Shown: positions 45,524 to 50,838 of the stretch, piece after piece
How positions within the stretch are numbered: position 1 is the stretch's first letter
Layout of the letters: every line of letters starts with the position of its first letter
From: Thermoleophilia bacterium
Lineage (GTDB): Bacteria; Actinomycetota; Thermoleophilia; Gaiellales; Gaiellaceae
Direction of reading: 5' to 3'
Length of the DNA: 52,694 nt
NCBI GenBank assembly: GCA_029865325.1
Contig: JAOUHF010000004.1
Coordinates: 1-52,694 of the forward strand
The notes under the pieces: model-generated
Databases searched by the model: none
What the model was told of the DNA's origin: nothing
The model's input: only the letters and a program-made list of their open reading frames with translations
Translations under genes and position numbers: made by a program

Positions 45524-46513
45524 GTGAAGGCGGTTTGCATACACGAGGACGGAGGACCTGAGGTCCTCAGCTACGAAGACGTCGCAGATCCGGAGCCTGG
45601 CCCGGGCGAAGTCCTCGTCTCGCTGAGAGCCGCCGCACTGAACCATCTGGACGTCTGGGTGCGGAAAGGGCTCCCGTCAGCACCGAAGCCACGCATCCTC
45701 GGGGCCGACGGGGCAGGGGTCGTGGCCGCACTCGGCGACAGGGTCGAGGGTTTCGAGATTGGTGATCGCGTCGTCGTGAATCCCGGGATCGTTCACGACG
45801 GCCGCATCACGGTCATCGGTGAGCACACCGACGGAACGTACTGCGAGCTGAAGGCACTCCCGGCCGGGCAGCTCTACCCACTCGCCGACTCGATGTCCTT
45901 CGAGGAGGGTGCGGCGTTCCCGCTCACGTTCGAGACCGCACACCGCATGCTCGTGACCAAGGCGGCCGTCCGCGAAGGCGAGTGGGTGCTCGTCTGGGGG
46001 ATCGGCGGTGGAGTCGCCTTGGCCGCCTTCGAGATCTGCCGCGCGCTCGGCGCACGCACGATCGTGACGTCCTCGAGCCAGGAGAAACTCGATCGGGCGC
46101 GGGAGCTCGGCGCCGACGTGGCTGTGAGCCATTCGAACGACGATGTCGTGAAGGCCGTCAAGGACGCAACTGGGGGACGTGGTGCTGACGTCGTCGTCGA
46201 GACCGTGGGCGAAGCGACCTGGGAGCGCTCACTCGGAGCAGCCGCGCAGGAAGGGCGCGTGGTCGTCTGCGGCGCGACCTCAGGCCACAGCCCACCGGCA
46301 CGCTTGTATCGGCTCTGGTGGAAGCAGCTCGTGATCTACGGCTCCACGATGGGCATGCCATCTGACTTTGAGGGCGCATACGAGCTCATCCGGGTCGGAC
46401 GCGCGCGCGTACACGTCGACAGCGTGTATCCGCTCGCCGAAGCCGCGAAGGCGCACGAGCGACTCGAGTCGGGCAAGCAGTTCGGCAAGATCGTCCTCGC
46501 CATTCCCGGCTGA
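45524..46513 (+). CDS. Zinc-type alcohol dehydrogenase/quinone oxidoreductase (MDR) family
   Basis: MKAVCIHEDGGPEVLSYEDVADPEPGPGEVLVSLRAAALNHLDVWVRKG, ILGADGAGVVA, VWGIGGGVALAAFEICRALGARTIVTSSS. GTG start at 45524. Confidence 0.92.
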   Translation: MKAVCIHEDGGPEVLSYEDVADPEPGPGEVLVSLRAAALNHLDVWVRKGLPSAPKPRILGADGAGVVAALGDRVEGFEIGDRVVVNPGIVHDGRITVIGEHTDGTYCELKALPAGQLYPLADSMSFEEGAAFPLTFETAHRMLVTKAAVREGEWVLVWGIGGGVALAAFEICRALGARTIVTSSSQEKLDRARELGADVAVSHSNDDVVKAVKDATGGRGADVVVETVGEATWERSLGAAAQEGRVVVCGATSGHSPPARLYRLWWKQLVIYGSTMGMPSDFEGAYELIRVGRARVHVDSVYPLAEAAKAHERLESGKQFGKIVLAIPG

Positions 46514-46544
46514 GCGTCGATTCCGGACTGCGGAAAGCGGCGAT

Positions 46545-46844
46545 TCAGCCGAAGCCGAGGATGAACTTCGCGTCGTCGGACATGCGGTCGGGCGTCCACG
46601 GAGGATCGAAGGTCAGCTCGGCTTCGGCCTCAGCCACTCCGGGCACGCCGCGAGCTGCGTCGACGATGCCGTCAGCGATCATCGCCCCGGCCGGGCATCC
46701 CATGGACGTCAGGCTGTAGATCACCTTCACCTTCGGGCCGTCGACCTCCACGTCGTACATGAGACCGAGCTCGACGATGTCCATCCCGAGCTCGGGGTCC
46801 TCGACCGTATGCAGCGCCTCCACGACGTCCTCACGCGTGACCAT
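46545..46844 (-). CDS. DUF59/MIP18-family Fe-S assembly (SufT/PaaD-like) protein
   Basis: EDVVEALHTVEDPELGMDIVELGLMYDVEVDGPKVKVIYSLTSMGCPAGAMI. Confidence 0.92.
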   Translation of the reverse strand: MVTREDVVEALHTVEDPELGMDIVELGLMYDVEVDGPKVKVIYSLTSMGCPAGAMIADGIVDAARGVPGVAEAEAELTFDPPWTPDRMSDDAKFILGFG

Positions 46845-46848
46845 GCGC

Positions 46849-47778
46849 CTAGTGTAGAGGCGAGGTCCTCACAGCCGCGACGAGCTGGTCGGCGCGCCGC
46901 AGAACAAGATCGAGAACGTCGCCGATCGCGCCATCAAGCGAGTCGTTGACAATCACCGGTACGTCGTGGCGCCGAGCGCGCTCGATGAGGTAGTCCTGGA
47001 TCTCCCTGATCTGCGGAAGCGAGTCGAGGTACTTCTCGAGCGGCCGAAGTCCTTCGGTCGCCTGGTCCCGCACCCAGAAATGACTTCGGTGCAGGTTCTC
47101 GTCCTCGATCGCCACGATGCACTGGACGACGAACGCCCCCGGATACTCGGTGCCAACCATGCCAGGGACGAGATGGACGCCCTCGAGGACCGTCGACCAG
47201 TGTTCGGTGGCCGCGCGCTCCAGCGCGGCATGTACGCCCACGAGGACGTTCCTCGTCTGATCGAGGAAGCCGAGTATCGCGGCGTCCCCGGACTCCTCCT
47301 CCTCCGCCCGCGTCAGCGCGAGCCGGGCCTCGAAGCTCGAATAGTGCACGGAAGGCATGAAATCCTCCGCAAAGAAGGCCCTCATGGTCTGTCGGATGAA
47401 GTCCGTCGAGGTGACTCGCGTAATTCCGAGCCGGTAAGCAGCCTCCGTTGCGATCGTCGATTTCCCAGTCCCGGTTGCACCGCCCACGAGCAGGAGTAGC
47501 GGCTCCTCGAGGCGCGCCAGCGCATCCAGGCGCCGCAAACGACGAACCATCCTGGCTGCCTCATCGTCTCCGATGACCCCCGCAGCGAGCTCGCCAAGGC
47601 GGTCGATGTCGAGAGAGAGCACTCCGCGATCGGATAGGTCACGATCTGCACGACGTGCTATCAAATAGGCGCGCTCGGGATCGAGACCCGTGACGACGAG
47701 CGCCCGGGCCATCAGCCCCTTCGAGAAGGGAAACTCGTCCCCCAGGGGCAGCGGAATCGTGTACCGGCGTTCGCTCAT
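46849..47778 (-). CDS. 2-phosphoglycerate kinase-like protein (ATP-cone-like N-terminus)
   Basis: PFSKGLMARALVVTGLDPERAYLIARRADRDL; P-loop LLLLVGGATGTGKSTIATEAAYRLGITRVTSTDFIRQTMRAFF. Confidence 0.82.
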   Translation of the reverse strand: MSERRYTIPLPLGDEFPFSKGLMARALVVTGLDPERAYLIARRADRDLSDRGVLSLDIDRLGELAAGVIGDDEAARMVRRLRRLDALARLEEPLLLLVGGATGTGKSTIATEAAYRLGITRVTSTDFIRQTMRAFFAEDFMPSVHYSSFEARLALTRAEEEESGDAAILGFLDQTRNVLVGVHAALERAATEHWSTVLEGVHLVPGMVGTEYPGAFVVQCIVAIEDENLHRSHFWVRDQATEGLRPLEKYLDSLPQIREIQDYLIERARRHDVPVIVNDSLDGAIGDVLDLVLRRADQLVAAVRTSPLH

Positions 47779-49031
47779 CTAGCGAATTTGGCCACTTCGA
47801 GGAGCATCTCGTCAAGGTCCGCGTCGTCGGCCACCGGAATGACGTCGTTCGCGGCGAGCGCAACTTCGGCGCCTCGCGCAACCGCCGCCTCTGCCACGAC
47901 GTCCACCGCGGCGGCCTTCAGCTCGATCAAGAAGAGATCGGCGTCAACGTCGAAGAGCTCGCGGCGAAGACGGTCGCGGTCGGCAAGGTTGCCCGAAACG
48001 TGGACGATATGGGCGCCGTGAACATCCGTCAGATGCTCCGCGAGCGCCGCGTGAGCTCTCGCCGGGGCGGTGCAGAAGTACGCGACCGATCGTCCACTGA
48101 TGTCCACGGTCGGTCGCGGCCGCAAGGTCGTTCCGACGATGGCAACTCCGGGACGTACGACACTCGCAACGGCGTTACGAACGTGCTTCCAGCCCGATTC
48201 AGGCTCAGCCATGGTCACGACGACGAGATCCGCGAGCAGAAGGCGATACGTGTTCAGATACCCGGCTGCGACTGCGGGGTCCTGATGGCCGCCGACGACG
48301 ACGAGCGTACGATCAGCAGCGATCGGCGGTATCGCCGCGCCGCTTCCGTCGAACACGACGACATCCGGCGCCAACTGCACCGCGACGGCCGCGCCTGCCG
48401 AGATGTTCGAGCGCGCAACGCCGCCCGCGAGACCTCCCCCACACCGACGACATCCCACCGTCTCGACGCCCGTGAGTGCTGCAGTCTCAAGGTGATCTGA
48501 CGCCGCGTGCCGGCCGGACCGAGAGAGCTCGATGAGAGCGTCGATGGTGGGCGGGACAGTGACGACCTCGGGCTCGGGCGGACCACCCCTCCCCATCGCC
48601 ACGACGACGACTCGCCGCGTCGATGCCACGAGCCGTACGAGATGACCTGTGACAGCCGTCTTCCCAACTCGCTTGCCGGTCCCGACGACCGCGATCGAGG
48701 GGAGCCCGAACGGCAGCCTCTCGGGCGGGTCGAGCCGGAAGTCAGCCCCCACGTACGGAACACCCAGCGCGAGCACGCGACTCGCGAGCGCCAACCGCTC
48801 GATCGGCCCAAGCACCGGCTCATCCGAGAGATCGACGACGACCTCAGGTGCGTACCTCTCGATCGCCGCCTCGACGTCTGTGACCGTCGGGACGCCGTAG
48901 TCGTCTCCCCCTCGAAGCTTCTCCGTACCCCCGACGAGCACCGCGGCGGCGAACTCGTACGGCAGTTCGGCGAGCGCATCACGGACGACGGGCGCGTAGT
49001 GCTCGCCGTCGACGATGGCCAGAGCTCTCAA
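47775..49031 (-). CDS. cpgS: Cyclic 2,3-diphosphoglycerate synthetase-like protein
   Basis: 418-aa: MRALAIVDGEHYAPVVRDAL ... IAVVGTGKRVGKTAVTGHLVRLV ... VVVVAMGRGGPPEPEVV. Adjacent to 2PGK with ATGA overlap. Confidence 0.8.
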   Translation of the reverse strand: MRALAIVDGEHYAPVVRDALAELPYEFAAAVLVGGTEKLRGGDDYGVPTVTDVEAAIERYAPEVVVDLSDEPVLGPIERLALASRVLALGVPYVGADFRLDPPERLPFGLPSIAVVGTGKRVGKTAVTGHLVRLVASTRRVVVVAMGRGGPPEPEVVTVPPTIDALIELSRSGRHAASDHLETAALTGVETVGCRRCGGGLAGGVARSNISAGAAVAVQLAPDVVVFDGSGAAIPPIAADRTLVVVGGHQDPAVAAGYLNTYRLLLADLVVVTMAEPESGWKHVRNAVASVVRPGVAIVGTTLRPRPTVDISGRSVAYFCTAPARAHAALAEHLTDVHGAHIVHVSGNLADRDRLRRELFDVDADLFLIELKAAAVDVVAEAAVARGAEVALAANDVIPVADDADLDEMLLEVAKFAR

Positions 49032-49834
49032 GTGCGCGACGTGACCTCGTCCTCGATCATGCCGGTGAACTTGGCGTACTCGAGCGTGTCGAGCGAGAAC
49101 GAGACCAGCTGAACCTGACCGTGGAACGGGTGCCGCCTCCAGATGTCCACCTTTCCGTCCACGATCTCGATGACGTTGTAACAGGGCCTCGTGTTACCCC
49201 GAAGCCGGAGCGAGGAGACGGTTCCCGCATTCACGACAAAGAGATCCTCGAGCCGCCACACGTACGGCACGTGCTTGTGGCCCGAAAGGACGAGCCGGAC
49301 CCCGGCTCGTTGAAGGCACTCGATGGCATCGCCTGCGTCGTAGACGACATTCCGCTCCCGCCCAGTACCCGGCACAGGCAAGAGGTGGTGGTGGAGCACG
49401 AAGATCTTCAGATCCGCGGGCTCTGCGCCGAACTGCTCTTCGATCCAGCGATACCGGCCTCGCCCGATCTGGCCGTGATCGAGATCGGGCTCGCTCGAAT
49501 CCACTGCAACGATCGCCACGCCCCGCTTGCGAAGCACCGAGTTCCGCTCCCCGAACATCTCCTCGAAGTGGACATACCCGACGTTGCGCGAATCGTGGTT
49601 ACCGGGAACGACGACGACCGAATCGCAGTCGATGCGGTCCATGTACTCGCGCGCGGTCAGATACTCGTGACGGAAGCCGAACGTCGTCAGGTCTCCCGAG
49701 CAAACGACCATGTCGGGCTGCAGCTCGTTGATCTCACTGATCGCCCGCTCCAGCAGGCTCGCCTCAAAGTACTGCTCTCCGCAGTGCAGGTCGGAGAGCT
49801 GCGCAATTCGGAAAACGTCGCCGGTCGAAGCCAT
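49028..49834 (-). CDS. Calcineurin-like metallophosphoesterase (Icc/CpdA-like)
   Basis: IAQLSDLHCGEQYF, VVCSGDLTTFG, VVVPGNHDSRN, FVLHHHLLPVP, LVLSGHKHVPYVW. Confidence 0.92.
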   Translation of the reverse strand: MASTGDVFRIAQLSDLHCGEQYFEASLLERAISEINELQPDMVVCSGDLTTFGFRHEYLTAREYMDRIDCDSVVVVPGNHDSRNVGYVHFEEMFGERNSVLRKRGVAIVAVDSSEPDLDHGQIGRGRYRWIEEQFGAEPADLKIFVLHHHLLPVPGTGRERNVVYDAGDAIECLQRAGVRLVLSGHKHVPYVWRLEDLFVVNAGTVSSLRLRGNTRPCYNVIEIVDGKVDIWRRHPFHGQVQLVSFSLDTLEYAKFTGMIEDEVTSRT

Positions 49835-49881
49835 GCGGACAGTCTACGACGCGGACGGGGACGTCCGAGGTCACTGCTACT

Positions 49882-50259
49882 GTGGCGCAGGTGCGGGTCG
49901 AAAGTCCCGTTTTCCAGGCATATTGTGGAAAGGACCCTCCGCGATTCGCAAATCGCGTGGAGGTTGAGTGCGCCAAGATCCTCGACTACTACGCAGTGCC
50001 CTGGGACTACGAGCCGCACTCCTTCGTTCTGCAGCGCGACGAGAACGGGCGGGTGGTGAGCGCGTTCACACCAGACTTCTACCTCCCCGAGCAAGACCTC
50101 TTCATCGAAGTGACGGTGATGAAGCAGTCGTTGGTCACGCGGAAGAACAGAAAGCTCCGCGAAGTGCACCGCTTGTATCCACACGTCAAGGTCAAGCTCT
50201 TCTACCGGCGCGACATCGAGCGCCTCGCGCAGCGGTACCGTCTGCGCCTAGCGTCGTAG
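49882..50259 (+). CDS. PD-(D/E)XK nuclease-like small protein
   Basis: ANRVEVECAKILDYYAVPWDYEPHSFVL ... FTPDFYLPEQDLFIEVTVMKQSLVTRKNRKLREVHRLYPHVKVKLFYRRD; E..PD..ExT arrangement. Confidence 0.6.
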   Translation: MAQVRVESPVFQAYCGKDPPRFANRVEVECAKILDYYAVPWDYEPHSFVLQRDENGRVVSAFTPDFYLPEQDLFIEVTVMKQSLVTRKNRKLREVHRLYPHVKVKLFYRRDIERLAQRYRLRLAS

Positions 50260-50262
50260 TCG

Positions 50263-50838
50263 GTGGCGTCAGCGCATCGACCTGAGATCGGCGAGGTCGG
50301 AGTCGTGTACCTCACGCGCGCGCAGATCGCGGCGCGCGTTGTCGAGCTCGGCGTCGAGATCGCACGGGATTACGAGGCGCTCAATCCGATTCTCATCGCG
50401 CCGCTGAAATCGAGCGTCGTGTTTCTCGCGGATCTCACGCGAGAGCTTCGGATTCCGCACACGCTCGATCTCATCGAGCTCGCTCCGTACACCGGTGGGC
50501 AGGATGGCGCCGTGCGCCTTCTGAAGGACGTCGACGCGCCTCTCGAGGATCGCCACGTGCTCATCGTCGAGGACGTCGTCGATACAGGATTGACCCTCCA
50601 CTTCCTGTGCAAGACACTCGGACTCCGAAATCCCGCGAGTCTCGCGGCCGTGACACTTCTCGATAGGCCATACCGCCGACTCGTGGACGACATTCCGCTC
50701 GAGTACGCCGGCTTCACCGTTCCGGACGAACTCTTTGCAGGCTACGGGCTAGGACTCGACGAGCGCTGGCGGGCATTCCCTGACCTCCACATCGTGGTCC
50801 CCGTGGCTCTTCCGCGGGACGTAATAGAAGCCGCGTAG
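50263..50838 (+). CDS. hpt: Hypoxanthine phosphoribosyltransferase-like
   Basis: NPILIAPLKSSVVFLADL ... HVLIVEDVVDTGLTLHFL (PRPP loop) ... AAVTLLDRPYRR ... YAGFTVPDELFAGYGLGLDERWR. Confidence 0.88.
   Translation: MASAHRPEIGEVGVVYLTRAQIAARVVELGVEIARDYEALNPILIAPLKSSVVFLADLTRELRIPHTLDLIELAPYTGGQDGAVRLLKDVDAPLEDRHVLIVEDVVDTGLTLHFLCKTLGLRNPASLAAVTLLDRPYRRLVDDIPLEYAGFTVPDELFAGYGLGLDERWRAFPDLHIVVPVALPRDVIEAA

Follow-up and report, generated by a model that had tools for sequence, protein, structure and literature searches.

Can an actinobacterium make, and perhaps take apart again, cyclic 2,3-diphosphoglycerate (cDPG), a compound that a 2023 structure paper places, together with its synthetase, only in hyperthermophilic methanogens? 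The question is raised by four consecutive genes in the stretch of DNA analysed here (the window, 52,694 nt of contig JAOUHF010000004.1 from a Thermoleophilia bacterium, assembly GCA_029865325.1). A first-pass annotation had described them as minus-strand genes with 4-nt overlaps or a tiny gap between them, in the order metallophosphoesterase (MPE), cDPG synthetase-like (CpgS), 2-phosphoglycerate kinase-like (2PGK) and DUF59. The coordinates bore this out (Table 1): MPE and CpgS overlap by 4 nt, as do CpgS and 2PGK, and a gap of 4 nt separates 2PGK from the DUF59 gene. In the earlier literature, cpgS genes had been noted in ammonia-oxidising archaea and reported, as genes responsive to pressure, in Pyrococcus yayanosii.

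Table 1. Positions of the MPE, CpgS and 2PGK genes and the adjoining DUF59 gene in the window, with their main database matches.
Feature	Position	Strand	Length, start and main match
Metallophosphoesterase (MPE)	49028..49834	minus	268 aa, ATG start; Pfam Metallophos E=2.1e-21 (over cut-off)
CpgS/cDPGS homologue (cyclic 2,3-diphosphoglycerate synthetase)	47775..49031	minus	418 aa, TTG start; cDPGS chains 8oru/8ork E=3.8e-83
2PGK-family P-loop kinase (2-phosphoglycerate kinase)	46849..47778	minus	309 aa, ATG start; NCBIfam PRK12337/PRK04220
DUF59/FeS_assembly_P (SufT/PaaD-like)	46545..46844	minus	99 aa, ATG start; PF01883 E=1.3e-19

The assembly (2.59 Mb in 192 contigs, the window being contig 53) holds a single copy of CpgS, and the nearest relatives of the genome are other Gaiellaceae/Thermoleophilia assemblies. 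A promoter scan of positions 46300-50300 gave zero matches, and the one terminator-like site found there is under the shuffled mean. Divergent from the operon, on the plus strand, lies a conserved gene of 125 aa (49882-50259) whose TPDFYLPE...IEVT pattern resembles PD-(D/E)XK nucleases and which has weak PHROG matches to Holliday junction resolvase/endonuclease; it accompanies hpt in Thermoleophilia. The hpt gene itself (50263-50838, plus strand) encodes a hypoxanthine phosphoribosyltransferase homologue (TIGR01203, E=3.4e-40, slightly below the cut-off) and is a cassette neighbour conserved across Thermoleophilia. In Gaiellaceae the cassette adjoins both hpt and the small nuclease-like gene.

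CpgS was compared directly with solved structures. In a phmmer search its residues 3-417 aligned with residues 6-451 of the Methanothermus fervidus synthetase (cDPGS, PDB 8oru) at 39.6% identity, and a second cDPGS (PDB 9sxb) was matched over the whole length (E=2.6e-79); Pfam and NCBIfam gave no useful model for this family. The TTG start agrees with the conserved N-terminus of the relatives, MRA.AIVDGEHY. When the published 2,3-diphosphoglycerate (2,3-DPG), Mg and phosphate contacts of cDPGS were placed on an alignment of 15 sequences (the window's and 14 relatives), E45, K46, K145, R146, K149, T150, D208, E404 and K406 were identical in all 15, including in the window's CpgS the two contacts that come from the opposite subunit, E45 and K46. 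At E305 and T353 the window's protein agrees with the solved enzyme, but the relatives vary. The adenosine-side contact P335 of the paper (F335 in the chain numbering used, L303 in the window) could not be placed; close to L303, P307 of the window's CpgS is invariant among the relatives. The locus CpgS is thus a full-length cDPGS homologue that retains the checked 2,3-DPG, Mg and phosphate contacts.

The neighbouring kinase, with the P-loop GGATGTGKST, has PRK12337 (E=2.7e-81, 273.6 bits against a curated cut-off of 603) and PRK04220 (E=2.8e-75, 253.5 bits against 343, residues 15-299 matching model positions 14-295) as its best-scoring families despite scores below both cut-offs; the model for mevalonate-3-phosphate 5-kinase also matches (E=9e-22). 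A sequence search of solved structures returned no match for this kinase, and its predicted fold (pLDDT 88) has a P-loop nucleoside-monophosphate-kinase-like core. We therefore infer the substrate, 2-phosphoglycerate, from the family and from the partner enzyme. The first-pass annotation had proposed a cpgS-2PGK operon in a bacterium, while allowing that the two enzymes might match unrelated P-loop families better or lack conserved substrate-binding residues. An actinomycete operon with homologues of both is indeed what we find; cDPGS and 2PGK, rather than unrelated P-loop families, give the best matches, and the catalytic and substrate-contact residues of cDPGS are kept.

The closest solved relatives of the MPE, both by sequence and by predicted fold (pLDDT 80), are Rv0805 and GpdQ, the latter being the best fold match (2dxl, E=1.8e-13). 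Five metal-ligand motifs (DLH, GDL, GNHD, HHH and GHKH) are invariant in the CpgS-linked MPE family, and no membrane segment is evident in the locus protein. It appears, in effect, to be a class III phosphodiesterase-like enzyme of the GpdQ/Rv0805 fold, and a candidate hydrolase of cDPG or 2,3-DPG.

How far this arrangement extends was assessed across 36 families of Actinomycetota, each represented by one genome; in this phylum CpgS was present in 159 of 298 sampled genomes. The order MPE-CpgS-2PGK, with its strand, is kept in 30 of the 36 families, far above chance. 2PGK adjoins CpgS in 35 families, on the same strand in 34; in f71 it is inverted relative to CpgS, and in f22 it is located elsewhere (10/10 genomes tested). 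Likewise, across 60 genome loci it adjoins CpgS in nearly all those with enough sequence, including the loci of Haloferacaceae and Thermococcus. Two single genomes depart from the usual arrangement: G266 and G267 have CpgS with a nearby MPE, but in G266 a 2PGK was not found at E<1e-8, and in G267 the 2PGK is present elsewhere. An adjacent MPE is missing in four families (f12, f13, f45 and f48), three of which have an unlinked paralogue. The usual setting of the cassette is a block running from the thr operon, upstream in many families, to rho-rpmE-prfA, with rho downstream in 31 of the 36 families and often fsa/talC in between; none of the genes of this block occurs in the stretch read for f1, f3, f15 and f71. 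Its recurrence across families suggests that the position is an old one.

The claim that the phosphoesterase belongs with CpgS and 2PGK is thereby upheld on grounds of adjacency, co-occurrence (see below) and conserved order. The DUF59 gene, which had been taken as attached to the same system, fared differently: in the stretches read it lies near the cassette only in f1 and f3 of the 36 families, and it can lie kilobases away or on the opposite strand (L013). Its scores against the SufT/PaaD equivalogs are all below the curated cut-offs (91.6/143.4, 80.6/202.6 and 51.4/108.15 bits). We have therefore rejected it as a pathway member, and regard it as a lineage-local, co-directional neighbour that probably falls outside the cassette. 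A PF01676 phosphoglycerate mutase gene found upstream in some families was also rejected as pathway evidence, since its product passes a 'proposed homoserine kinase' model as well and the gene takes the place of thrB in the thr operon. This apgM-like replacement was seen in 10 of the 36 families (e.g. L142:9051-10220 and L145:9086-10177), and no stretch that was read contained both it and thrB.

Another way to judge whether MPE and CpgS belong together is to ask if they are present and absent together. We took as orthologous an MPE found at E<1e-100, a threshold chosen once the gap separating it from the paralogues was known, with a search profile built from CpgS-linked members. Among 150 genomes of the window's class, which are related so that the counts are not independent and a Fisher value for the association cannot be read as a probability, CpgS was present in 74; 72 of these had the orthologous MPE, within 300 nt of CpgS in 69, and zero of the 150 genomes had the orthologous MPE without CpgS. 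Several lineages, belonging to f1, f8 and f10, lack the two together: the f8 genomes G012 and G030 contain neither, and in f10 the pair is present in G143 but absent from G097 and G110. Two class genomes (G022 and G115) carry CpgS without an orthologous MPE. Genomes of f8, including G012, G018 and G030, have a second, unlinked MPE paralogue (E about 1e-80), which persists in genomes that lack both CpgS and the linked MPE.

In archaea, CpgS was found in 92 of the 115 genomes of the phylum of the Thermococcus locus and in 5/199 of that of the Haloferacaceae locus, and at both loci 2PGK is adjacent to it. Together with the actinobacterial counts, this gene distribution does not fit the published restriction of cDPG and its synthetase to hyperthermophilic methanogens. 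A fused two-domain relative of MPE lies at most 3.5 kb from CpgS in 71 of the 85 Thermococci genomes counted, either convergent (L105-L107, L120) or co-directional after CpgS-2PGK (L115, L116, L118, L119). In the MPE tree the first domain of this Thermococcal protein is sister to a group of linked and unlinked bacterial forms; given that it is equally close to the unlinked bacterial paralogue, a single ancestral MPE-CpgS association is not proven. A recent transfer from archaea was also considered and is not supported, as the actinobacterial CpgS sequences form one clade separate from the archaeal ones (in an unrooted tree) and the cassette occupies a conserved position in the thr...rho-rpmE-prfA block.

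Considered as a whole, these observations are in our view explained, with a probability of roughly two in three, by a bacterial cDPG cycle made up of MPE, CpgS and 2PGK. 2PGK would use ATP to convert 2-phosphoglycerate to 2,3-DPG. In keeping with the mechanism proposed for M. fervidus cDPGS, CpgS would then phosphorylate the 2-phosphate of 2,3-DPG with a second ATP, and attack by the 3-phosphate would close the ring to give cDPG, ADP and Pi. The MPE, with its binuclear metal centre, may reopen the phosphoanhydride ring (cDPG to 2,3-DPG) or take a phosphate off 2,3-DPG, which would return carbon and phosphate to glycolysis. The synthetic chemistry is what we infer from conserved residues, and a bacterial cDPG pathway is likely given which enzyme families are present and that they are conserved together. 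The hydrolytic step is the weaker part of the explanation: gene association, co-occurrence and fold place it somewhat above an even chance. As few of the carriers found look hyperthermophilic, a role as thermoprotectant or osmolyte does not transfer automatically, and in these mostly non-hyperthermophilic organisms cDPG would likely serve as a regulated phosphate or energy reserve or as a stress protectant, not as a molar thermoprotectant. The solutes listed in targeted analyses of Rubrobacter and Thermococcales are other compounds.

The two halves of this cycle could be separable. CpgS and 2PGK may make cDPG while the MPE acts on a side product, a nucleotide or another phosphodiester, its linkage being regulatory, which we consider possible if rather unlikely. 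Enzymes of the MPE superfamily are promiscuous in their substrates; unlinked paralogues from the same subfamily are found both in genomes without CpgS (G012, G030, G097, G110) and in families lacking an adjacent MPE; and the Thermococcal relatives show no particular closeness to the linked bacterial clade. Against this reading stand the near-perfect co-occurrence and adjacency of CpgS and the linked orthologue within the class, a cassette order kept in most families, and an MPE relative near CpgS, in other orientations, in an archaeal lineage. The product itself might also differ, the cassette making an analogous compound, cyclic or phosphorylated, whose precursor is a different phosphorylated hydroxy acid. 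This seems less probable again: every 2,3-DPG-contacting and catalytic residue of cDPGS that was checked is kept and, just as in archaea, CpgS is paired with a 2PGK-family kinase; yet the bacterial 2PGK does score below its curated cut-off, the archaeal enzyme has a different residue at about 60% of the positions aligned with CpgS, and we found no report of bacterial cDPG in the open-access literature searched.

It is highly improbable, in our judgement, that the purpose of the operon is to supply 2,3-DPG to a cofactor-dependent phosphoglycerate mutase, the amount of 2,3-DPG being adjusted by CpgS and MPE. 2,3-DPG is the cofactor of that enzyme, which was the form present alone in most Actinobacteria surveyed in 2010 (PMC2964296). 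However, the window's genome encodes a bona fide cofactor-independent mutase (601 bits against a cut-off of 331), so that a supply of cofactor is not obviously needed; Rubrobacter xylanophilus has the independent mutase only (PMC2964296), and a catalytic cofactor would have no need of an ATP-consuming cyclase.

Should the cDPG cycle be real, cDPG would turn from a supposed speciality of a few hyperthermophilic methanogens into a metabolite common in many lineages of Actinomycetota; about half of the genomes sampled carry its synthetase gene. The gene distribution points to cultured archaea, and probably bacteria, as places to look for cDPG, and enzymes from non-hyperthermophiles would be useful for production of this extremolyte. 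For the cDPG hydrolase reported in the 1990s, to which we found no gene assigned in the open-access literature searched, the MPE would provide a specific candidate gene. A bolder suggestion, improbable enough that we offer it as speculation, is that cDPG is an old and widespread regulated metabolite of Actinomycetota, akin to a second messenger, with a synthase pair and a dedicated class III phosphodiesterase, and that its role as a solute of hyperthermophiles was a later use.

Among known systems, the M. fervidus cDPG pathway (2PGK and cDPGS, PDB 8ork/8oru) has in common with the locus both enzyme families and the checked cDPGS contacts. The locus differs in being bacterial, in having its genes adjacent and overlapping and in including a phosphoesterase. 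The cDPG hydrolase of Methanothermobacter thermautotrophicus has the reaction proposed for the MPE, but it is known as a membrane-bound activity (PMC1224877), which counts against the match to a protein without an evident membrane segment. GpdQ and Rv0805 share with the MPE their predicted fold and metal-ligand motifs at an identity of about 20%, whereas the MPE has a different, conserved motif, PGTGRERN. The cpgS-2PGK genes of Thermococcales (T. kodakarensis TK1039; P. yayanosii PYCH_14390-400) form a tandem with a nearby MPE of the same subfamily, as here; their MPE is a fused two-domain protein encoded downstream and often convergently, while the bacterial one is single-domain and encoded upstream.
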